Shown here: piece by piece, positions 1-21,699 of the stretch
Layout: every line of letters starts with the position of its first letter
How positions within the stretch are numbered: position 1 is the first letter of the stretch
Position numbers and translations under genes: made by a program
From: a virus
Length of the DNA stretch: 21,916 bases
Strand: one strand, 5' to 3'
IMG/VR virus record: IMGVR_UViG_3300015360_000219
Location: 1-21,916 of that record
The notes under the pieces: model-generated
The model's database searches: none
What the model saw: the letters and a program-made list of their open reading frames with translations, nothing else
Told to the model about the DNA's origin: nothing

Positions 1-122
1 GCCATGTTGGCGGATTGAACCCGCCGGACGGCGAACGGTCAGCAATCCGCCATGTTGGCGGATTGAACCCGCCGGACGGCGAACGGTCAGCAATCCGCCA
101 TGTTGGCGGATTGAACCCGCCG
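1..122 (+). repeat. Tandem 48-bp palindromic repeat array (about 2.5 units)
   Basis: Two complete and one partial copy of a 48-bp unit begin at 1, 49 and 97. Units 1 and 2 look identical; the third diverges after about 26 bases. Each unit junction holds a perfect inverted repeat with 10-bp arms CAATCCGCCA and TGGCGGATTG around TGT (43-65 and 91-113), and each unit also has a smaller palindrome, CGCCG-GA-CGGCG. Because 48 is a multiple of three, the array stays open in frame and would encode a 16-residue repeat. It sits downstream of the gp36-like gene, and I see no gene in it. A 29-bp core (41-69) occurs again at 19662-19690 inside a phage early gene. It looks like a REP-type element; origin and function are unknown. 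Confidence 0.85.
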
Positions 123-203
123 GGCGGCTCTTCGCCGCCTCTTCGCCGCCTGAAGGCATGCGCGAAAAACCCTTGTCAGGATCATAACATGCGTTTTTAG
201 CCA
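123..203. other. Short non-coding stretch after the gp36-like gene
   Basis: This stretch contains a short direct repeat, CTTCGCCGCCT, twice in a row (about 129-150), then AT-richer sequence running up to the stop codon of the gp36-like gene. I see no gene, terminator or promoter that I can defend. Confidence 0.4.
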
Positions 204-632
204 TCAAATAAATCCCTTCAGCGCTTGTGTTGAAAGCGGGCGCTCGGGATCGGACATGATGACTTCGCCGCCGCCCGATGCGGCCGGTTCGGTTCCGGCC
301 AGGTCGAGCCGGATTTTGCCGTCGGCAATTTCGCGCAGCTGCTTGAGCGCGCTGGCGTAGTCGTCCTTGATCTTGTCGCCGACCGTGTTGGCATGCGCGT
401 AATAGATTGAAACCCGCAATGCCAGGTCCGCCACCAGCTGCGGCGTTGAAGCCAGCGGCAGGCCATATCTTGCGGCCAGATAGCCGTCGATCAGCGCGCC
501 GGCATCGGCAATCGCCCGCGTGACCAGCGCGTCGTCCACCGTGCCGGTCGGGCTGGTGCCGCGATCCGAAACGGCAATGAGCAGCTGCTCCCCGTAGCGC
601 TCGATCATCTGGGCCTTGGTGCAATAGGACAT
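204..632 (-). CDS. DUF1320 family protein (Mu gp36-like)
   Basis: This is a protein of about 142 residues matching the Mu gp36/DUF1320 family, a small protein encoded just after the major head gene in Mu-like phages and thought to act at the head-tail connection. The family hallmarks are visible: an N-terminal YCTKAQMIERYGE stretch, an acidic DD then an AIADAGALIDGYLAARYGLPL-type helix, a central YYAH and a C-terminal IADGKIRL segment. The preferred start is the ATG at 632, which forms a TGATG overlap with the upstream gene; a GTG one codon earlier (635) is the alternative. It is the last recognisable phage gene before the left edge and is followed by the palindromic repeat array. Family assignment is from remembered motifs. 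Confidence 0.85.
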   Translation of the reverse strand: MSYCTKAQMIERYGEQLLIAVSDRGTSPTGTVDDALVTRAIADAGALIDGYLAARYGLPLASTPQLVADLALRVSIYYAHANTVGDKIKDDYASALKQLREIADGKIRLDLAGTEPAASGGGEVIMSDPERPLSTQALKGFI

Positions 633-880
633 CACTCGCGCTCCGGCTTTGTCGCAGCCTTGAGCGCAAACATCACTGCGGTTTCCACATGGGTGATTGC
701 AATCGACTTGAGCCTGCCAATGGCGGAATTGCCGACAATCCCCGGCAGCCGGTCGTTCGGGACGCTCTCGATCATATCGATGAAGCAGGCGGAGAACTGC
801 TTGAGTGCCTCAACCTGGTCGTCGCAGGACGGATCGACCCCGGCACCGACCAGATATTCGCCATAAGTCTGCTGCGGCAT
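632..880 (-). CDS. Small protein resembling the Acb2/Tad1 nucleotide-sponge family
   Basis: This 82-residue protein shows an N-terminal YGEYLVG motif, then PSCDDQVEALK, a hydrophobic helix ending in FIDMIE, and a C-terminal helix IAITHVETAVMFALKAATKP (about 60-79). That layout (G-E-x-x-VG, PS-x-(D/N)-x-x-V-x-x-(I/L)K, then a terminal T-x-x-E-x-A-x-M-x-A-x-KA helix) is what I recall for phage proteins annotated with the Acb2/Tad1 hairpin domain. Acb2 binds cyclic oligonucleotides to block CBASS, and Tad1 binds gcADPR-type signals to block Thoeris. The match is remembered, not computed. A good ribosome site (AAAAGGA) precedes the ATG, which follows the tRNA 3' end by 23 bases. It could instead be an unrelated small head-associated protein. 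Confidence 0.6.
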   Translation of the reverse strand: MPQQTYGEYLVGAGVDPSCDDQVEALKQFSACFIDMIESVPNDRLPGIVGNSAIGRLKSIAITHVETAVMFALKAATKPERE

Positions 881-4089: not shown

Positions 4090-4791
4090 TTATATCCCCT
4101 TCAGCTTCAACCCTATCTCTCCGGGATTGAAGGCAAAGCCGGGGTCGACGCCCGCAGGCGCTTCGACCGGCGTGAGCACGCCGTCGATTTTCACAAATTT
4201 GATGATGGTCGGCGACCAGGGCGCGGCCTCGCTCACCTGCCAGCCATAGCGCTCCAGATCGTCGTCGGAGAGCTGCTGCACGTGGCAGCGGCAGTTGAAG
4301 CCGTTCGGCGGGAAATGGGTTTTCCACCACGGGTCCTCCGCGTCGAGAATGACGCCCTGCCAGGCGGCATGCGCGTCGCGCACCCGGTTGTCTTCCGCCG
4401 TGATGTAGCGCAAATACGGCGCGTGTTTTTTCCCGGCCTGGATTTGCCGCCAGCGCCCGGCGGCCTGCGCCTGTGCTGTCATCGTGCGGAAAACCAGTCT
4501 GGCCCGCCAGCCGTCCTCGTTGTCGCCGGACCAGCCGCGCGCCGCTGCAATGCCGTCAAATTTTTCCTCGAAGTCCCCGATGGTCGATCCCTCTTCCATC
4601 GCCGCCAGGATGGCCTGCAGAATGTCGCGCGACATGGCTTCGCTCATGTCGGATGAACGCGCCCGCGCTGCGGCGTCCACTTCGAAGATCAGCGCCTGCC
4701 AGTCAGCATCGGAAAATTTCAGCCGGTCCTTGAGAAAGGCGATGGCCTCGGCAAACGCGATGCCCTTTATTTCGGAATTGGCGTCAGCCAT
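4090..4791 (-). CDS. Phage head morphogenesis protein (SPP1 gp7 / Mu gpF family)
   Basis: This 233-residue protein carries the C-terminal signature of the gpF/SPP1 gp7 family: YLRYITAEDNRVRDAH (about 126-141), W-x-G, and the FPPNGFNCRCHVQ motif (160-172) with its CRC pair, preceded by DPWW. The family helps assemble the prohead near the portal vertex. It is at the short end for the family, with the N-terminal part reduced compared with many gpF proteins. It overlaps the portal gene stop by 8 bases. Downstream comes a non-coding gap rather than a gpG-type gene. The identification is strong; the exact minimal role of a short gpF is inferred. Confidence 0.9.
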   Translation of the reverse strand: MADANSEIKGIAFAEAIAFLKDRLKFSDADWQALIFEVDAAARARSSDMSEAMSRDILQAILAAMEEGSTIGDFEEKFDGIAAARGWSGDNEDGWRARLVFRTMTAQAQAAGRWRQIQAGKKHAPYLRYITAEDNRVRDAHAAWQGVILDAEDPWWKTHFPPNGFNCRCHVQQLSDDDLERYGWQVSEAAPWSPTIIKFVKIDGVLTPVEAPAGVDPGFAFNPGEIGLKLKGI

Positions 4792-6394
4792 TGTTCGCCT
4801 GCGCCAAGATTTCCGCCCGCCCGGTCAACTCGGCCAGCAGCATCGCCTGCCGCATTGTGGCTTCCAGTTCCTTTGGCGGCAAACCGGCCATGCCGTCGCG
4901 CACAAGCTTTTGCAATTCTTCCAGGCTGTCCGCCGCCTCGACGCTTTCGCGCAGCCAGGCGGTCAGCACCGATGCACCCGATAGCGCGCCGTCGGCAATC
5001 GCCTCGAACAGGTCTGCTGCGACGGGTTTTGCCGGACCTGCAGGCTTGGAGGCAACCGTCACCGGCTTTGCCGGATTGCCAGGATCGGGCAGCGGATTAG
5101 TCGCCGGATAAGGTGCCGCAACCTTGAGCGGCGCATCGCCCGGCGCGGCTTTTAGCGGCGCATCGCCGTCGGCTGGCGCGCCGATGCCTATCAGTGCCCG
5201 CATTTGGTCTTGCCCGACGACGAGGCCGAGCGGGGTCAGCATCGCCACCGCGTCAACGAGCATTTTCACGTCCTTGGTTTCCGGGCGCCCGATCTTGACG
5301 CGCGGGTAGCTGGCCTGCGGGCCAAATTCGAGGTCAATCCATGGCCGGATCAAATCACGGTTGATGATCGCCGACAATTGCCGCGCGTCGGCCCGTTCGA
5401 TGTCTTCCTGCACCTGTCGGTGTTCCTGGCCGACCGCATGGCCGCCTGCAATGGCGTCGGTGGTGGCGGTCTGGCCCAGCACTGCCTTGCTGATTTGCTG
5501 GTCGAGCCAGTTGGCCCGCTCAATGTAAAGCGCGTGGCCTGCGCCAAGGTTTTTGGCTTCGATGAATTCAATCGCCATGCTCTCGGGAATGATCGCCGCC
5601 ATGTCGCCGCCAATGTTGGCGACCGCCCGGTAAAGCGTCTGGCGGTCCTGCGGCGAAGCATTGCTGCCGTATTTGCCGAGGCGAACCGGCTGGCCGTAAT
5701 TCTGGGTGAAGATCGCCCAGTCGCGCTGGGTGAACGCCTTGAACATCCACGCCCAGGCGATGATCCGCGCAAGGCCGGAGCGCGAGGGCAGGCCGGACTT
5801 GGCCCGCATCACGGCGAAGACATACTTGAACGCATCAATCGGCTTTTCCTCGCCGTTGTCGTGGATCCGCGTCGGCGTGCGCCCGTCGGTGCGGTCAAAG
5901 CGGAACCAGCGCGGATCGCGCCATTCCAGCCGTTCCGGCCGCCATTGCCCGCTGGAGCTGTCCCAGATGATTTCGGTGAACGAATAGCCCTTGCCGACGG
6001 CGTCGAGCATGTCGAATATTTCATCGGCCAGCTCGTCGCGCTTCAGCCAGCCGCCGACCATGTCGGCCTGTTTGACGTGCGCCGGCTCGTCGCTGCCCGG
6101 CTCGACGCTGATTTCCAGCTGCGCCACGCTCTGCTTTCTGGTGCGCAGCACGCCGGCGTAATGCGGGTCGCGCTCTTCGATGGTTTCGGCGAGTTCAAGA
6201 TAGCGCAGCGGGTCACCGGCATCGGCTTCGCGCAAAATCACCGCCAGCCGGTCCGGGTTGAGCCCGTCGCCCGGATAAGAGGTCAGCGGCGAGCGCACGC
6301 CGACGCTGGCTGCGGACAATTCGGTTTCCAGAACCGATTTCTCGATGGGCTGGCCGAACCGGTCGGTCAGTCCCTTGAAGAATTTAGCCATCAT
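4784..6394 (-). CDS. Portal protein, DUF935 family (Mu gp29-like)
   Basis: This 536-residue protein matches the DUF935 portal family that forms the dodecameric channel for DNA entry and exit. Recognisable segments are DGLNPDRLAVILREAD near the N-terminus, LELAETIEERDPHYAGVLRTRK, VGKGYSFTEIIWD, PRWFRFD, GLARIIAWAWMFKAFTQRDW, YGQPVRLGKYG and GHAVGQEHRQVQEDIERAD, in the order typical of the family. A Pro/Ala/Lys-rich linker follows near residue 430, then a helical C-terminal tail. The start at 6394 gives an ATGA overlap with the terminase stop; a second ATG is one codon later. The gene order terminase-portal-gpF is standard for Mu-like phages. Confidence 0.93.
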   Translation of the reverse strand: MMAKFFKGLTDRFGQPIEKSVLETELSAASVGVRSPLTSYPGDGLNPDRLAVILREADAGDPLRYLELAETIEERDPHYAGVLRTRKQSVAQLEISVEPGSDEPAHVKQADMVGGWLKRDELADEIFDMLDAVGKGYSFTEIIWDSSSGQWRPERLEWRDPRWFRFDRTDGRTPTRIHDNGEEKPIDAFKYVFAVMRAKSGLPSRSGLARIIAWAWMFKAFTQRDWAIFTQNYGQPVRLGKYGSNASPQDRQTLYRAVANIGGDMAAIIPESMAIEFIEAKNLGAGHALYIERANWLDQQISKAVLGQTATTDAIAGGHAVGQEHRQVQEDIERADARQLSAIINRDLIRPWIDLEFGPQASYPRVKIGRPETKDVKMLVDAVAMLTPLGLVVGQDQMRALIGIGAPADGDAPLKAAPGDAPLKVAAPYPATNPLPDPGNPAKPVTVASKPAGPAKPVAADLFEAIADGALSGASVLTAWLRESVEAADSLEELQKLVRDGMAGLPPKELEATMRQAMLLAELTGRAEILAQANNG

Positions 6395-12974: not shown

Positions 12975-13159
12975 GTCCGGCTCCCTTCAATGCGGCGGGT
13001 GATTTCGGCCTCGGCTGCGGCCATCATCGCCTTGCCGTCTTCCTCGTCCTTCAGCATTGCCGTTTCCCGGTCAGCGTATTTGGCATGGGCGACCATCACA
13101 GCGCCGGAATGGTAGCAGCGAAGCAGCGCGGCGACGCTCTTGTGGAGAAGCGCGCTCAT
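12971..13159 (-). CDS. Small early hypothetical protein
   Basis: This 62-residue protein begins MSALLHKSVAALLRCYHSG, continues with VAHAKYADRETAMLKDEEDG and ends in an amphipathic helix MMAAAEAEITRRIEG. I do not recognise it. No signal peptide or membrane helix is convincing. It is translationally linked at both ends, with ATGA overlap to Gam upstream and to GemA downstream, which is the main evidence that it is a real gene. Confidence 0.65.
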   Translation of the reverse strand: MSALLHKSVAALLRCYHSGAVMVAHAKYADRETAMLKDEEDGKAMMAAAEAEITRRIEGSRT

Positions 13160-13686
13160 GCTGCCGCTCCTTCGCTCATCTGCTCTTCAAACGGCTCGAC
13201 GATGAAATCCTCGCCTTCGCTGGCGATGTTCACCCCGGCCACCGAGCGCGCCACTTCCGGCTCGGCCATCATCGCCTCCTTGTTCGGCTCTTCCTTGGTG
13301 CGGATGAATTTCGAAAGACCGAGCGCCCGCAGCGTCTCGACAACGGCGTCAGCCCCGCCGCGCAAACTCACCTTGGGTGGCCGGTTGCGCCAGCTCACCT
13401 GGCCGGTTGCCAGCCTTGCAAATTTCACCCGGTCATTGCCGGTGAGCCGGCTTCGATTGGCCGTGCAGTAGGCTTCAACCCCGAGCAGCAGCGTCTTCGA
13501 GCGTTCCTTCATCGGCTCTGCCGCCGCCTCGTGCAGTTTGCGCACTGCCGCCAGCTCGTCGTTCATGGCGAGTTCCGCCCGGCCAAGGTCGCGGCGCACC
13601 GCGCCAAGCTCGTGCACCGCCGTTTCGAGATTCGCGTCGCTTTGCGGTACCGGATAATTCAGGGTAAGTTTTTTGGCCTTGGCCAT
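13156..13686 (-). CDS. gam: Host-nuclease inhibitor Gam
   Basis: This 176-residue protein has the length of Mu Gam (174) and its helical, charged pattern: an N-terminal PQSDANLETAVHELGAVRRDLGR helix, a coiled stretch AELAMNDELAAVRKLHEAAAE, LLLGVEAYCTANRSRLT, then VKFARLATGQVSWRNRPPKV and an ALGLSKFIRTKEEPNKEAM segment. All follow the Gam order. Gam binds DNA ends and protects phage DNA from host exonucleases such as RecBCD or AddAB, functioning like a bacterial Ku. A GGAGG ribosome site precedes the ATG. The C-terminus has an acidic tail. It lies just after the DnaA-C-like gene. Confidence 0.9.
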   Translation of the reverse strand: MAKAKKLTLNYPVPQSDANLETAVHELGAVRRDLGRAELAMNDELAAVRKLHEAAAEPMKERSKTLLLGVEAYCTANRSRLTGNDRVKFARLATGQVSWRNRPPKVSLRGGADAVVETLRALGLSKFIRTKEEPNKEAMMAEPEVARSVAGVNIASEGEDFIVEPFEEQMSEGAAA

Positions 13687-14789: not shown

Positions 14790-15839
14790 TCACACCTCCA
14801 CATCGCGGTTTGACCACGCAGCTTTCAGGTCCGGCAGCGTCAGCTCGCGCCGCTCTCCGAGCGCGTGGATTTTGGCGAGCTTCACCGTCATTTCGATCTG
14901 GCCCATCGCGCCCGGCTTCATGCCGACACCGACGAGGAAGTCGCTCATCGCTTTGTCGGCAATGCCCCATGCCCGGATATAGGCGACAAGGTCTTCCTTG
15001 CGCGGCGACGTGCGCTGCAGCCGTTTCATGATGCGGCGGCGCAGTTGCGCAAACCTTGTTCCGGCTCCCCACGAGGAGAAACGCGAATAGCTTTCCGAAT
15101 TGCCCAGCATCGCAATGCCGCACTGGAAATTGTCGGTGAAGTGACGCAGCTGGTTGGTCGCTTCGTCGGAAAGGTTCTGCGCCTCGTCGATGATCAGCAG
15201 GGTCGGCGCGTCACGCCGCTGCACCCGCTTGCCGATGGCCGCGACGATGTTGCTGTTGTTGATCGCCGCGCCGTTCAGTACCGTTTCAGCCACCGCCAGC
15301 AGCATGCCGTGCATCTTGCTGGTATGCGGCGAAATCGTCACCAGCCAGCAGTTGCCGTGCTTGGCGACATACTGCCTGGCCGTCGCGGTTTTCCCCATGC
15401 CGGCCTCGGCGCAGATCATCACCATGCCTGGGCTGGTCTGTGCCAACAGCAGCATGTGAGTGATTTCTTCCGAAATCCGCGTCTTGATGAACGGCGGGCT
15501 GACCGGCAGCGCCTCCTCCATTTTGCTCGTCTCGTCCAGCTGGTCGAGGAAGTTGGAGACCTTGGAATTGAGCTCGGCGAGACGACCCGGATACTTGCCG
15601 GAAATCCACTGGTTGAAGGTTGGCTCCTTGATGTCGATGCGCCGCGCCGCTTCGCTTTTGCTCCACTGTTGCTGCTCGGCAATGCTGGCGATCCGGTCCA
15701 CCAGGTCAGCGCGACGGGCGATGTCATCGCCGCTGCGGCCAGGTCCGGGTTCAATCACCGGCGGCGTTTCGGGAAGCGACCAGAATGCCGCCTCATCGGG
15801 CCTTGTGGCATCGGGTCTTGTGGCATTTGCGTGGTTCAT
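14790..15839 (-). CDS. MuB-like transposition target ATPase
   Basis: This 349-residue protein matches the MuB family. An N-terminal helix-turn-helix lies at about residues 58-90 (KSEAARRIDIKEPTFNQWISG), then an AAA+ core with Walker A AEAGMGKT (144-151), Walker B LLIIDEAQ (214-221) and a sensor-like AMLGNSE (243-249), with arginines RRRIMKR at 267-273 as possible fingers. The C-terminal part resembles the MuB domain contacting MuA. MuB coats target DNA in an ATP-dependent manner, delivers it to the MuA transpososome and imparts target immunity. A strong AGGAGA ribosome site is 7 bases upstream. Between it and MuA lies a 109-base gap with a plus-strand terminator. Confidence 0.93.
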   Translation of the reverse strand: MNHANATRPDATRPDEAAFWSLPETPPVIEPGPGRSGDDIARRADLVDRIASIAEQQQWSKSEAARRIDIKEPTFNQWISGKYPGRLAELNSKVSNFLDQLDETSKMEEALPVSPPFIKTRISEEITHMLLLAQTSPGMVMICAEAGMGKTATARQYVAKHGNCWLVTISPHTSKMHGMLLAVAETVLNGAAINNSNIVAAIGKRVQRRDAPTLLIIDEAQNLSDEATNQLRHFTDNFQCGIAMLGNSESYSRFSSWGAGTRFAQLRRRIMKRLQRTSPRKEDLVAYIRAWGIADKAMSDFLVGVGMKPGAMGQIEMTVKLAKIHALGERRELTLPDLKAAWSNRDVEV

Positions 15840-15882: not shown

Positions 15883-15916
15883 GCCGGCTGGTTCCAACCA
15901 GCCGGCTTCTTTTTTT
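15883..15916 (+). terminator. Intrinsic terminator reading rightward between MuB and MuA genes
   Basis: A perfect 11-bp inverted repeat, GCCGGCTGGTT/AACCAGCCGGC (15883-15906), is followed on the plus strand by TTCTTTTTTT (15907-15916). On the minus strand the hairpin is followed by A residues, so it terminates only rightward (antisense to the operon). It would stop antisense transcription from MuB into MuA. Confidence 0.75.
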
Positions 15917-15948: not shown

Positions 15949-17874
15949 TCAGTCTTCGCCGTCCCGCCCGCCCGCGATCAGCCGCAGGCCCTTGGCAAAG
16001 TTGTCTTCATGGCTTTCAGTCCAGGCGTCGGGATTGGCTGCGGCCAATGCCGCCGCCCGGCCTCCCGCGAGCCCTCCCGCCAGCCGCACCACGACCGGGC
16101 GCACCGGCTGGTGCTCTTGCGGCAGCGGGCCTGCGTAAATCCGCGCCAGCTCGTCCGCCGAAAGTTCGGCTTGCATCCGCGCCTGGTCCTTGATGGTTTT
16201 GAGCCAGGCCGCGCGCTTGCGGTTGTGATCGCGCGCTGCGCTGACATCATCAAAACCTGCGTCTTCAATGCGCTGGGCATGGCAGACCAGCCGGTCGCTG
16301 ATGTCGTAGATGTCAACGCCGGCTTCCAGATGATCCGGGTCAAAACGCACCGTCACCCGCTTGCCGGCATGGGCTGACAGGCCGGGCGACCAGTAGCGGT
16401 TGCCAAAAAGCTCGATTTCGCCGCTGCCCTTCTTGGCTCGGATGCTTTCCGCCGCCAGCAGCCAGAGCGACCGCTGTGCCTTGCTTGCCCAGCGAACGAT
16501 GGTGCCTGGTGCGGCGAGACTGGCCGCGAAGGCGGCATCGAAGCTGCGGCCTTTGGCATTGGCGGCGCGCCGGCCGGGCCGGGCGTTGTGTTCGGCAATT
16601 CCGGCCGCTACCAGATGCCGGAATTCTTCCATGGGAATAGCCGCATTGCCGTAGTTTTCCGGCTTGGCATCCGGGCGATTGCCGGTATAGGCACCGGCAC
16701 AGGCCGGGTGGCGCGAAATATTTTCCGCAAGATCGCGCCATGCCCGCTCTATCGGCTTTGACTGGCCGCTATACGGCGTCGTCCAGATGATCTCGACGCG
16801 CAGCGTGGTCAACAGGCCCTGCGGGTCTTCGTCTCTTATCTTGAAGCGGAAGCGCCGTGCCGCCCCGCCGGTGATCCATTTGCTGGCAAACGCCCGGCCG
16901 TTGTCGAGGAAGATTTTTTCCGGGATGCCGAAGCGTTCGACCATGTCGCCGATCACCAGTCGCACGGTCTCCTTGTTCTCGGTTTCCGCAAGTCTCCATG
17001 CAACGATCTTGCCAGAAAAAAGGTCCTGGATGCCGACCAGAACGGGCCGGCCGATCCGCCCGTCCGGCCAGCGGCAGAACACATCAAATTTGTGTCCGTC
17101 CGTGTTGCAGGCCTGCATCGCAGTCAAATGGCTGCGGTCGCGCCGCTGTGCTGGGTAAAGCCCCTTGGAAACATCGCGGCGCTGGCGCGCCATCACCGCA
17201 ACACCGGCAGGAATTTCCGCTTCGATCCGCCGCCGCAGCGCCCGCTCCGATGGCACCGGCACCCAGCCGCACCGCCTCGCCGCCGCCGCCATCCGGCGAT
17301 AGCAGGAGGCAAAGCAGGGCGCTTCATCGCGCAGCCAGTCAGACTTGAAAACCTTCAGTGCTTGCGGGTGGCAGGCGGCAAAGCCGTCGCGGCCCTTGTG
17401 ACGCGGGGCCAGTGCCGCCAGCCGGTCCTGCCGGGCGTGGCCGCTGGCCAGTTCCTGCCAGTTGTACAGCGTCGCCGTGCTCACCCCGGCCTCGCGGGCG
17501 GCAATGGCAACAGCGGCGCTGGCCTGGCTGCCGGCATCTTGCAATTCCACCACCCTGTCGAGCGTCTTCAAACGCGCCTTGCAGGTGTCTTTCTGGCGAT
17601 TTGAGAGCCGGTTATAGCCGTCCCACAAGGCCTCTGCCGCCGGCTTTGCCGGCGGGCTGTCCGGACCGTGCGCCAGTGTCAACCGTGCCTGCACGTCGTC
17701 CGGCAGCAGCGAGAAATGATATTCTCGGCCGCCGCCGCGCCCCTCGGCCTTGCGCGCTGTCTCGCCCGCCCGCCAGCCTTGGCGTTGTGCGTGACGGTTG
17801 ATGCCGCGCACGCTGCCCGGCAGCGTGCCGCCGGCACAGGCGGCAATTTCGCCTGGGGAAAACCATTGCTTCAT
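15949..17874 (-). CDS. MuA-like DDE transposase
   Basis: This 641-residue protein is the phage transposase, with both integration and replicative transposition activity. The N-terminus (WFSPGEIAACAGGTLPGSVRGIN) is the MuA enhancer-type winged helix, followed by end-binding HTH domains with ATLYNWQEL. The catalytic RNase H-like core has D259 (ACNTDGHKFDVF), D324 (IFLDNGRAFASK) and E376 (QSKPIERAWRD), with 65 and 52 residue spacing close to Mu (269/336/392). A beta domain (FGNRYWSPGL, VTVRFDP) and helical C-terminus follow. The start at 17874 overlaps the upstream stop as ATGA; an 18-residue longer frame is less likely. All catalytic residues are present, so it appears intact. Confidence 0.96.
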   Translation of the reverse strand: MKQWFSPGEIAACAGGTLPGSVRGINRHAQRQGWRAGETARKAEGRGGGREYHFSLLPDDVQARLTLAHGPDSPPAKPAAEALWDGYNRLSNRQKDTCKARLKTLDRVVELQDAGSQASAAVAIAAREAGVSTATLYNWQELASGHARQDRLAALAPRHKGRDGFAACHPQALKVFKSDWLRDEAPCFASCYRRMAAAARRCGWVPVPSERALRRRIEAEIPAGVAVMARQRRDVSKGLYPAQRRDRSHLTAMQACNTDGHKFDVFCRWPDGRIGRPVLVGIQDLFSGKIVAWRLAETENKETVRLVIGDMVERFGIPEKIFLDNGRAFASKWITGGAARRFRFKIRDEDPQGLLTTLRVEIIWTTPYSGQSKPIERAWRDLAENISRHPACAGAYTGNRPDAKPENYGNAAIPMEEFRHLVAAGIAEHNARPGRRAANAKGRSFDAAFAASLAAPGTIVRWASKAQRSLWLLAAESIRAKKGSGEIELFGNRYWSPGLSAHAGKRVTVRFDPDHLEAGVDIYDISDRLVCHAQRIEDAGFDDVSAARDHNRKRAAWLKTIKDQARMQAELSADELARIYAGPLPQEHQPVRPVVVRLAGGLAGGRAAALAAANPDAWTESHEDNFAKGLRLIAGGRDGED

Positions 17875-18083
17875 TGCGCGGCTTCCTTGACCGCTGCCTC
17901 GATCACGGCTTGATGCCGTGCCACCCACCGCAGGGTTGCCAGCACCGCCTCCATCCGGGCGATCAGCACGTCGGCTTCGCTGCGCCGCATATTGCCTGCC
18001 GAAATTAGCCGGCCATAAACGAAGTGCCGCTTGGCGATTTCCGCTTCGGCCTCGCTGATTTGTTGTTCGATGCTGATTTTCAT
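17871..18083 (-). CDS. Small helical early protein upstream of MuA
   Basis: This 70-residue protein (MKISIEQQISEAEAEIAKRHF...) has a highly charged coiled-coil-like N-terminus and an amphipathic helix (EADVLIARMEAVLATL) near the end. No family is recognised by eye. The preferred ATG at 18083 overlaps the previous stop as TGATG; a GTG at 18086 is the alternative. Tight linkage to MuA and conserved spacing suggest that it is expressed with the transposase. It may be a small transposition or regulatory helper, although nothing in the sequence proves this. Confidence 0.65.
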   Translation of the reverse strand: MKISIEQQISEAEAEIAKRHFVYGRLISAGNMRRSEADVLIARMEAVLATLRWVARHQAVIEAAVKEAAQ

Positions 18084-18985: not shown

Positions 18986-19238
18986 GGCCGTGCTCCAGGC
19001 TGTGCAGGAAGCCGTCCAGGTCTTCTGGCGACCAGTTCCGTGATGCCTGCTCTCGCTGGGCCGGCGTCATCACACGCCGGGTGATCGCCGCGCTTTCGCC
19101 CGCCCGTTTGATCGCTTCCCGCGCCACCCTCCCGGCGCGGCTTCGGGCTGCAATCCTGCCGGTTTCAAAAACCGCCATCGCCAGCAGCAGAACCGCCAGC
19201 CAGAACAACGCCACGCCATAGCTTCCAAGGTCAGCCAT
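18975..19238 (-). CDS. Single-pass early membrane protein
   Basis: This 87-residue protein has one strong N-terminal transmembrane helix (about residues 8-27, GVALFWLAVLLLAMAVFETG), then a basic cytoplasmic tail (RIAARSRAGRVAREAIKR) and a hydrophilic C-terminus ending in LHSLEHGHEQ. The topology is probably N-out with the tail in the cytoplasm by the positive-inside rule. No family is recognised. Its start overlaps the ParB-like stop by 8 bases. It might serve in superinfection exclusion or membrane takeover, both speculative. Confidence 0.65.
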   Translation of the reverse strand: MADLGSYGVALFWLAVLLLAMAVFETGRIAARSRAGRVAREAIKRAGESAAITRRVMTPAQREQASRNWSPEDLDGFLHSLEHGHEQ

Positions 19239-20091
19239 CGGTCTCCCTTTCGATCTCTGTCAGCAGTTCGCGGACCTCGTCCGCATGGATGCGCAGCCAG
19301 TCCTTGCGCGCGTTTTTTCCGGCCCGTGACCAAATGGACACCAGCCGTTCTGCGCTCTTGGCGCTGGCGCTGGTTGGGATTGCCGGAAACAGGATTGCCT
19401 CGGCGCGGGCAACGTCGCCCTTCGCAGTGCCGGCCAGCAGTTTTGCCAGCTTGGCCTGGTCTTCTGCGGTGTAGCGGGAAACCCGCTCGATGGCCGACTG
19501 GTTGTCTTCTGCGCTCGAGTTTGTCAGCGCCGCCGCCAGGGCAAGGTGCAGGTTGCGGGCAATGGTGCAAAGCCGTTCGGCTGTGCGTAGTGAAAGACCA
19601 AACCGCTCGGCGGCGCGGGCATAAAACCGCCCTTGCTCGCTGTCTTCTGCAACGCCGAGCAGGTTCAATCCGCCAACATGGCGGATTGCTCTCTGGTAAC
19701 CGCCACGCTGCACTTTTCCGGCTTTGGCCTCGAACAGTTTGCGCCACTCACTGACCGCGATGATCTTCTCCAGCGCTGACAGCTCGTTGCGAAACAGGTT
19801 TTCCTCGATCTCCTCTTCGCGGGCCGCATCGGCATCGGCCTTGACGATTTCGCAAAGGATTGTTTCCCGTCCGGCCATCCCGTGCGCTTCCAGCCGGTGC
19901 GCGCCGGAAACCAGCAGGAACGTGCTTGTCCCGTTCGGCGTGCGCCGCACCTTGATCGGCGGCAGGCTTTTGCCGTTAAGCAGCATTGCTGCATACAGCG
20001 AAGCGAAGTCAGCCTTGACCGGCCGCAGCCGGTTTGCCGCGACGCCGATTTCCGCGACCTTCAATAATTGCGGGAGTTCCAGCTTGCTCAT
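19231..20091 (-). CDS. ParB/Srx-like nuclease-domain protein carrying an in-frame palindromic element
   Basis: This 286-residue protein has the ParB N-terminal fold: L-x-x-L-x-x-V at the start, then FLLVSGAHRLEAHGMAG (59-74, the G-x-HR-x-EA box) and EENLFRNELSALEKI (96-110, the ENL-x-R-x-x-LS box). Next come a helical HTH half (AAERFGLSLRTAERLCTIARNLH) and a C-terminal tail. Mu-like phages of this bacterial group often carry such a gene early in the operon, where it may bind or cut DNA; ParB-fold proteins bind CTP. Residues 134-143 (RAIRHVGGLN) are encoded by the 29-bp repeat core found at the left window edge. The start overlaps the upstream stop as ATGA. Confidence 0.85.
   Translation of the reverse strand: MSKLELPQLLKVAEIGVAANRLRPVKADFASLYAAMLLNGKSLPPIKVRRTPNGTSTFLLVSGAHRLEAHGMAGRETILCEIVKADADAAREEEIEENLFRNELSALEKIIAVSEWRKLFEAKAGKVQRGGYQRAIRHVGGLNLLGVAEDSEQGRFYARAAERFGLSLRTAERLCTIARNLHLALAAALTNSSAEDNQSAIERVSRYTAEDQAKLAKLLAGTAKGDVARAEAILFPAIPTSASAKSAERLVSIWSRAGKNARKDWLRIHADEVRELLTEIERETDG
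19662..19690 (-). repeat. Copy of the palindromic element inside the ParB-like gene
   Basis: These 29 bases match the core of the left-edge repeats (41-69 and 89-117) exactly, in reverse orientation on the plus strand, so the coding strand of the ParB-like gene carries the same sequence as the plus strand at the left. The perfect hairpin is at 19666-19688. It stays in frame and codes RAIRHVGGLN within a variable linker between the nuclease and HTH parts. Flanking bases do not match, so only the core is shared. Confidence 0.9.
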
Positions 20092-21055: not shown

Positions 21056-21311
21056 GTCCTTACGGCTCAACGAAGGCGACCTCATTTTTGTCGACCCGGA
21101 AAGTCCGCTCAAGGCCGGTGACGCCGTCGTCGTCCAGACGCAGGACTACGAAGGTGCCGACGTTCTTTCATGGCTCAAGGAGTATGTGCGGCAAAGCCGC
21201 GAGGACCTTACCACGCGCCAGCACAACCTGCCGGCCGAGGTCAAATTCAAGCTCGCTGTCGTGCGCGCCGTCCACCGCGTTATGACCACCAAGGACCTTT
21301 TCGGCCTTTGA
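21033..21311 (+). CDS. Truncated repressor: stand-alone S24 (LexA/CI C-terminal) domain
   Basis: This 92-residue protein resembles only the C-terminal half of LexA/CI-type repressors: FRFYV, GDLIFVDPESPLKAGDAVVVQ, a Lys in SWLKEYVR (K49, the catalytic Lys position) and HRVMTTKDLFGL at the end. The usual GDSM-x-P with the catalytic Ser is shortened to KSLRLNEGD, so the Ser is uncertain. There is no N-terminal HTH domain, and only 78 bases separate it from ner, so none can be encoded there. The start is a GTG at 21033 with a GGGAGA ribosome site. It is divergent to ner, the normal place for the repressor. It is likely decayed or a dimerisation-only remnant. Confidence 0.7.
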   Translation: MPFRFYVKSLRLNEGDLIFVDPESPLKAGDAVVVQTQDYEGADVLSWLKEYVRQSREDLTTRQHNLPAEVKFKLAVVRAVHRVMTTKDLFGL

Positions 21312-21315
21312 GCGC

Positions 21316-21447
21316 CTGTCCAAGTTCGCAACTGTAAAATCGCGGCGCGGCAAGCCGAACTTGGACAGCCTAGTGTGCTGATAACAAACGATTTTCGCTA
21401 ATTTGCTGCCAGCGATTTGGCAAACTTGGACAGCGTGTCCAAGTTCG
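21316..21447. promoter_or_regulatory. Operator-like array of four inverted TGTCCAAGTT sites
   Basis: Four copies of TGTCCAAGTT[C/T]G occur in 131 bp: site 1 at 21317-21328 (plus), site 2 at 21356-21367 (minus), site 3 at 21422-21432 (minus) and site 4 at 21436-21447 (plus). Sites 3 and 4 form a perfect 10-bp palindrome around a 3-bp spacer; sites 1 and 2 form a 12-bp inverted pair. Such an array beside an early/repressor region suggests operators or transposase accessory sites; binding partner unknown. Confidence 0.7.
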
Positions 21448-21699
21448 GTTTGCTTTTGGCTCGCTTCGCCAGGCTGTTTGCCGGTGCTTTCACCGCCCGG
21501 TCGTAAATCTGGTAAACCCTTGTGGCAGCGCGTTTTTTTGCCTGCTCTGCACCGGTTGTTTTCTGGCATTTTAGGGGTGTTTTACGAACCGGCCGCCTTG
21601 GCCTTGCATGCGCCGCATGGCCGGTGTTTTTCCAATTTCAGGCGTCAAACGTTCGTCCAGCCAGGCCGCGCCAACTCGCCGCTAAGCCCTTGTTGTGTC
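21448..21699. other. Gene-free stretch between operator array and phage terminus
   Basis: I see no gene with a plausible start. One minus-strand frame at about 21400-21550 reads RAVKAPANSLAKRAKSKP then NLDTLSKFAKSL, loosely like an HTH domain end, but it has no start codon. The stretch is otherwise featureless. Confidence 0.4.

Follow-up and report, generated by a model that had tools for sequence, protein, structure and literature searches.

The ParB-like gene of a Mu-like phage appears to carry, within its own coding sequence, the DNA site of the protein that it encodes. From the comparison of sequences reported here, we consider it likely that a perfect palindrome in this gene is the protein's own site, of parS or operator type, and that a tandem array found elsewhere in the same genome is this site, copied and amplified. 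The DNA analysed, hereafter the window, is a linear IMG/VR virus record of a Mu-like phage taken over its whole length of 21,916 nt, in which MuA, MuB, Gam and gp36 all lie on the minus strand. Its main features are as follows.

1..123, no strand assigned: tandem array of 48-bp units, 2.56 units up to the contig edge, going on at positions 1-123 of a second contig, L003
1..17, no strand assigned: palindrome of array copy 1, truncated at the contig edge
43..65, no strand assigned: perfect 10-3-10 palindrome, array copy 2
91..113, no strand assigned: perfect 10-3-10 palindrome, array copy 3
13156..13686, minus strand: Gam
14790..15839, minus strand: MuB transposition protein
15949..17928, minus strand: MuA transposase, which marks the phage as transposable
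19231..20091, minus strand: ParB-like gene (parB), predicted ParB/KorB/Noc fold
19662..19690, minus strand: 29-mer shared exactly with the array, in the part of parB that encodes the linker
19666..19688, no strand assigned: the perfect 10-3-10 palindrome of parB, which we propose as cognate site of the encoded protein

Each 48-bp unit of the array contains one palindrome, CAATCCGCCA-TGT-TGGCGGATTG. Units 1-48 and 49-96 are 100% identical, the third unit reaches position 123, and the two complete palindromes (43-65 and 91-113) bear out the preliminary description, which had reported tandem units with perfect 10-3-10 hairpins. The same palindrome is found again within the ParB-like gene, at 19666-19688: the 29-mer AGCAATCCGCCATGTTGGCGGATTGAACC, present at 41-69 and 89-117, is the exact reverse complement of 19662-19690, again as first described, and the match lengthens to 32 nt at 97% and to 38 nt at 92% identity. 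That an exact match of 29 bases is essentially impossible by chance can also be upheld, since 0 matches to the palindrome are expected in shuffled sequence even when up to 3 mismatches are allowed. A terminator-like signal was sought at the array and none was found, and a role of the array as a terminator was rejected on this ground.

Related genes carry palindromes of their own at the same place. Among 120 distinct ParB-like genes, 72 have a strong palindrome (score of at least 8, mismatches allowed) in the linker before the DNA-binding domain, compared with a mean of 4.7 genes (maximum 9) after synonymous codon shuffling. A separate scan found 73 genes with a linker palindrome against 2-3 in three control regions of equal size in the same genes, and 70 of these 73 palindromes are of odd length. 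Perfect palindromes with arms of at least 10 occur in 42 of the 120 genes, all but one of them (41/42) at 0.47-0.64 of the gene. As expected of a parS-type site, the element is thus dyad-symmetric, conserved beyond chance and placed in the linker-coding part of parB. About 48 of the 120 genes are without a clear linker palindrome; in RcWaterboi (L301), for instance, the best palindrome is short and located outside the linker. Two related genes, L168 and L306, have even-length sites in which the half-site spacing shifts by one base, and this variation counts against a ParB site because a rigid dimer would disfavour it. Linker palindromes are also found in isolated phages: CGGTGGGAAAACTTTTCCCACCG in the RcapMu gene at 4635-5486 of JN190960, ATCGAAGGGCACCGAGTGCCCTTCGAT in Aussie, AACAGGGTAATGATTACCCTGTT in StopSmel and an imperfect one in POA1180. 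In Aussie, StopSmel, G009, L096 and L104, no palindrome of the genome, or of the stretch examined, is longer than the one within the parB-like gene.

In all 15 other phages or prophages tested (15/15), the strong palindrome is single-copy and lies within parB. For this reason the site within parB is probably the ancestral state in the family, and the array a secondary and recent copy-and-amplify event. Among the phages examined, only that of the window has an array of its own site, and no extra sites were found in the other genomes except for a partial second site in POA1180. The latter (L174:35616-35644) lies in another early gene and differs from the parB site at 6 of 29 positions (best control, 10), its right half being identical; it suggests that some phages have dispersed sites. 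Strong linker palindromes were also noted in L223, L226, L230, L246, L255 and L273, loci without a MuA match in the short stretch examined, and the self-encoded site may extend beyond transposable phages. The preliminary description had proposed, as one of two readings, a binding site recognised by the ParB-like protein and captured in its gene. Recognition gains credit from the palindromes that homologues have in their own linkers and from a core that is kept across reading frames (see below), whereas capture fits poorly with a parB site that looks ancestral.

The protein is a plausible reader of such a site. The family profile matches Spo0J, Noc, ParB and KorB chains, and PF02195 is present in 26 of 30 family members, the window protein itself having no PF02195 match. 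Its AlphaFold2 model (mean pLDDT 89.8) has a ParB fold, with an N-terminal ParB domain and then a helix-turn-helix (HTH), and these two elements make it a putative member of the ParB/Noc/KorB CTPase-clamp family. The best Foldseek match is the Caulobacter ParB complex 6t1f, with KorB (8qa9/8qa8) and Noc close behind. The linker, including the residues coded by the palindrome, is ill-defined in the model (residues 131-150, mean pLDDT 50-59). In alignments the usual GERR of box II, a motif tied to NTP binding, is replaced by GxHR, which is GAHR in the window protein. ParA was not seen among the window genes scanned (part of the ORFs), which makes a classical partition function doubtful.

Where the array stands had to be corrected. 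The preliminary description put it at the left side of the phage, but positions 1-123 are the edge of a contig. When viral contigs were scanned for the palindrome, whatever its loop, one other contig matched: L003 (IMGVR_UViG_3300015360_000365), which opens with the identical 48-bp unit in opposite orientation and continues with the gp37/Phage_tail_S gene and tail genes. L003 is very probably the other part of the window's genome, the assembly having broken at the array. The pure array is exactly 123 bp long in the window and exactly 123 bp long in L003, and 123 is a k-mer size used by MEGAHIT; this fits a k-mer assembly break, so that 2.56 units cannot be taken as the total of the array. Since L003 carries the same array into gp37, the array is located between gp36 and gp37 and not at a phage end. 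The window side of this junction comprises two features.

1..204, minus strand: small ORF MAKNACYDPDKGFSRMPSGGEEAAKS-[RPAGSIRQHGGLLTVR]n, putatively coding given its open frame and two overlaps
204..635, minus strand: gp36, head-tail adaptor (PF07030), which flanks the array

The ATG of the small ORF overlaps the gp36 stop, the repeats are read in frame as RPAGSIRQHGGLLTVR, and the frame runs on in L003 to a stop that overlaps the GTG start of gp37 (L003 156). Judging from this arrangement, the ORF may be a coupled small gene, or else an insertion that would have been retained since the coupling was preserved. In most relatives where both genes could be compared gp37 comes directly after gp36, and a conserved small gene at the junction was rejected because most relatives are without it and L008-L010 have an unrelated small ORF there. 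This ORF of about 62 aa (L008:1832-2026, also in L009 and L010) indicates that the gp36-gp37 position accepts extra genes. For the repeat-containing small ORF, Pfam yielded no match, and even the best phage homologue (E 0.4) is not convincing. At L003:2984-3116 stands another tandem array, of 39 bp in 3.4 copies and unrelated to the first. The 52-aa ORF that contains it (MSQEATSASGRQQEAANGFAASGRQQ...) and the tape-measure gene overlap at the start of the latter, a layout like that of the 48-bp array: a small coupled ORF made of in-frame repeats.

Such a layout raises the question whether the array does anything. The parB site could be functional and the array a by-product, copied by recombination, expanded by slippage and kept since it stands in frame between two translationally coupled genes; this we regard as a real possibility, though not the one that we favour. 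The 100% identity of the units implies that the expansion is recent, no other examined phage shares the feature, and the 39-bp array in another small ORF of the same phage suggests that this lineage tends to expand repeats. Against a by-product, every array unit keeps the palindrome and its asymmetric loop intact, and tandem dyads with a period of 40-50 bp are a known form of ParB centromere (sopC).

What is conserved among the parB palindromes is found at the level of DNA. Their flanks vary among phages and the core SGMMAWNWTKKCS is retained in all three reading frames. When centred on the dyad, the half-sites share S-G-M-M-A-W (position -5 is G in 93%, position -2 is A in 81%). Compared with the remainder of the same genes, the linker shows an 11-fold enrichment of the exact core SGMMANNNTKKCS. 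The palindromes are distributed over the codon phases as 52, 10 and 8 genes (n=70), and the core is present in each phase. A conserved peptide motif, E-I-x-S-F, could explain part of the core in view of the 52 palindromes in one phase, but the 18 genes in the other phases still keep it. The core of the window palindrome (AATCCGCCA...TGGCGGATT) is also found in L116 and L129, two parB genes from other phages. A relaxed pattern matched 40 stretches in viral contigs, many of them terminator-like hairpins, and L116 and L129 among them proved to be parB genes. It is translated as AIRHVGGLN in the window and, in another frame, as KSANLADL or KSASLADL in L116/L129. Conservation of RAIRHVGGLN as protein was rejected, because homologues are without it and L116/L129 read the same DNA in another frame.

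The half-sites also vary with the protein: once N-domain identity is accounted for, their similarity still follows that of the HTH (partial r 0.225, permutation p<=5e-4, Mantel test), a modest effect in a test that removes phylogeny only partly, and among pairs with N-domain identity <0.5 the correlation with the HTH (0.178) equals that with the N-domain (0.185). This relation bears on the possibility that another protein (a Ner-like regulator, a repressor, MuA or a host factor) binds a site that merely falls in parB. The genes concerned do share an early region adjoining the transposase; but the site accompanies the ParB-like gene in different phages, also at loci in which no MuA was seen (40/69), and its half-sites track the HTH of the ParB-like protein, so we hold the involvement of another binding protein to be unlikely.

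The palindrome could instead act as an RNA hairpin in the parB mRNA, for example by slowing the ribosome between two domains or by controlling expression. The parB segment does fold as a strong RNA hairpin (z -2.3), its position is exactly between two folded domains and loop length ranges from 1 to 5. However, mismatches within imperfect palindromes are A-C in 19 cases and G-T in 12, hence without a G-U excess; a generic hairpin needs no sequence core, yet the core is conserved in all reading frames; and the array copies stand in another gene cluster and in opposite orientation. An RNA element is improbable on these grounds, and the core in all frames together with the lack of a G-U excess point to a parS-type DNA site within the gene of its own binding protein.

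Rickettsia palindromic elements (RPEs), which are about 100-150 bp long, also bring palindromic DNA in frame within genes, and a mobile element of this type was the other reading of the preliminary description. RPEs are multicopy insertions, whereas here we found neither an insertion nor copies in the genomes scanned. The palindrome has only three unrelated matches in 84,980 species genomes (the two that were read are both terminator-like) and was not found in phage or plasmid collections; the record names no host for the phage. The alignment of ParB homologues, in which RAIRHVGGLN had been suspected to be an insertion, places the segment in a linker of variable length with no clear extra segment, and the linker of the window protein is not unusually long. 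Although the same 29-mer stands in two genes in opposite orientation with the frame kept in each, insertion of an RPE-type element in parB and between gp36 and gp37 is most improbable, since it is not seen as a repeat in these collections, does not interrupt parB relative to homologues, and is replaced by palindromes of different sequence in the same linker of those homologues.

Other elements of the window can be recorded here. Four TGTCCAAGTTCG-like copies in both orientations lie at 21306-21455, near the presumed left end of the phage; two of them make a perfect 10-3-10 palindrome, AACTTGGACAGCGTGTCCAAGTT, which also fits the SGMMANNNTKKCS core. These copies are candidate transposase end sites or a candidate operator. 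The perfect 11-2-11 palindrome at 15883-15906, which has T runs and lies between MuB and MuA, is likely a terminator. Among the structural genes, the minus strand at 632-880 encodes a small protein whose hairpin domain is of the Acb2/Tad1 type (PF24729); this family comprises anti-defence nucleotide sponges.

The proposed site and its array can be compared with known systems. The iterons of sopC are 43 bp long. They stand in tandem with one inverted repeat each (PMC5016525, iteron architecture), as do the 48-bp units with their 10-3-10 palindrome; the protein that binds the iterons is of the ParB family, SopB of the F plasmid. sopC adjoins sopAB, whereas the array stands among the structural genes, at a distance of about 19.5 kb from parB; it resembles sopC by analogy of form, and we do not class it as a sopC-type centromere, given that it is not adjacent to a par operon. 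The OB operator of KorB is 13 bp long. KorB of plasmid RK2, whose ParB fold is close to the model of the ParB-like protein (8qa9/8qa8), is both a clamp and a repressor with sites scattered over the replicon (PMC11790492). Its OB sites follow one consensus, whereas the outer parts of the phage sites differ between phages. Cluster O mycobacteriophages, which encode ParB-domain proteins, have many dyad-symmetric 7-3-7 sites (17-bp repeats), some of them within genes; for Corndog, the available part of that report gives about 34 dispersed copies and neither shows a link to parB nor describes a tandem array (PMC4351075).

The nearest experimental precedent for the location of the site is ParT of the Streptomyces coelicolor plasmid SCP2, a DNA-binding clamp whose 18-bp inverted-repeat parS was located within the parT coding sequence by ChIP-seq and a binding assay (PMC12260392). 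As proposed here, the gene of a ParB-like protein thus holds its own site. ParT differs in being plasmid-borne, in having a ParA partner and in being without a CTPase domain, whereas the phage proteins are of the ParB_N type with no ParA seen, and their sites are mostly 23-31 bp, of odd length and phage-specific. In the open-access literature we found no paper that assigns a DNA target to the ParB-like proteins of Mu-like phages, and the available part of a 2025 survey of ParB folds mentions neither palindromes nor transposable phages (PMC12704722). A parS within its own partition gene is therefore already known, and it is the family-wide form in transposable phages that appears undescribed.

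We thus favour the following scheme, in which binding by the ParB-like protein, clamp loading and any function of the array are what we infer. The proposed site lies in the part of the gene encoding the flexible linker that joins the N-terminal ParB domain to the helix-turn-helix; the peptide would be free to vary there, so that the site could diverge together with the protein. Each of the two helix-turn-helix domains of a dimer would dock on one palindrome arm, and, by analogy with ParB, Noc and KorB, the bound dimer may close as a clamp and slide. In the phage of the window, a copy of the site would have reached the gp36-gp37 junction and multiplied there into 48-bp tandem units, inside a small ORF whose frame they keep. 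The resulting second cluster, multi-site like F-plasmid sopC, may be a second loading site or a by-product. The consequences could be autoregulation, early-region silencing or anti-silencing, or a partition-like organisation of phage DNA. It is tempting to go further and to speculate, with considerable doubt, that a ParA-less ParB clamp of transposable phages loads at its self-encoded site in the early region, spreads and marks the phage DNA as 'self', and that the late region of this phage has gained a multi-site loading array. If so, 'self' marking could serve target immunity, anti-silencing or the organisation of the prophage as one domain, and each lineage would have a private lock and key within one gene.

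ParB-like genes adjoin the transposase in many Mu-like phages of Alphaproteobacteria. A predicted binding site is now at hand for dozens of phage ParB-like proteins, among them the one encoded by RcapMu, a phage of Rhodobacter capsulatus, and their function thereby becomes testable. The data suggest that evolution has joined site and protein in a single gene, so that they are passed on together and can diverge jointly, which would give each phage a private specificity.
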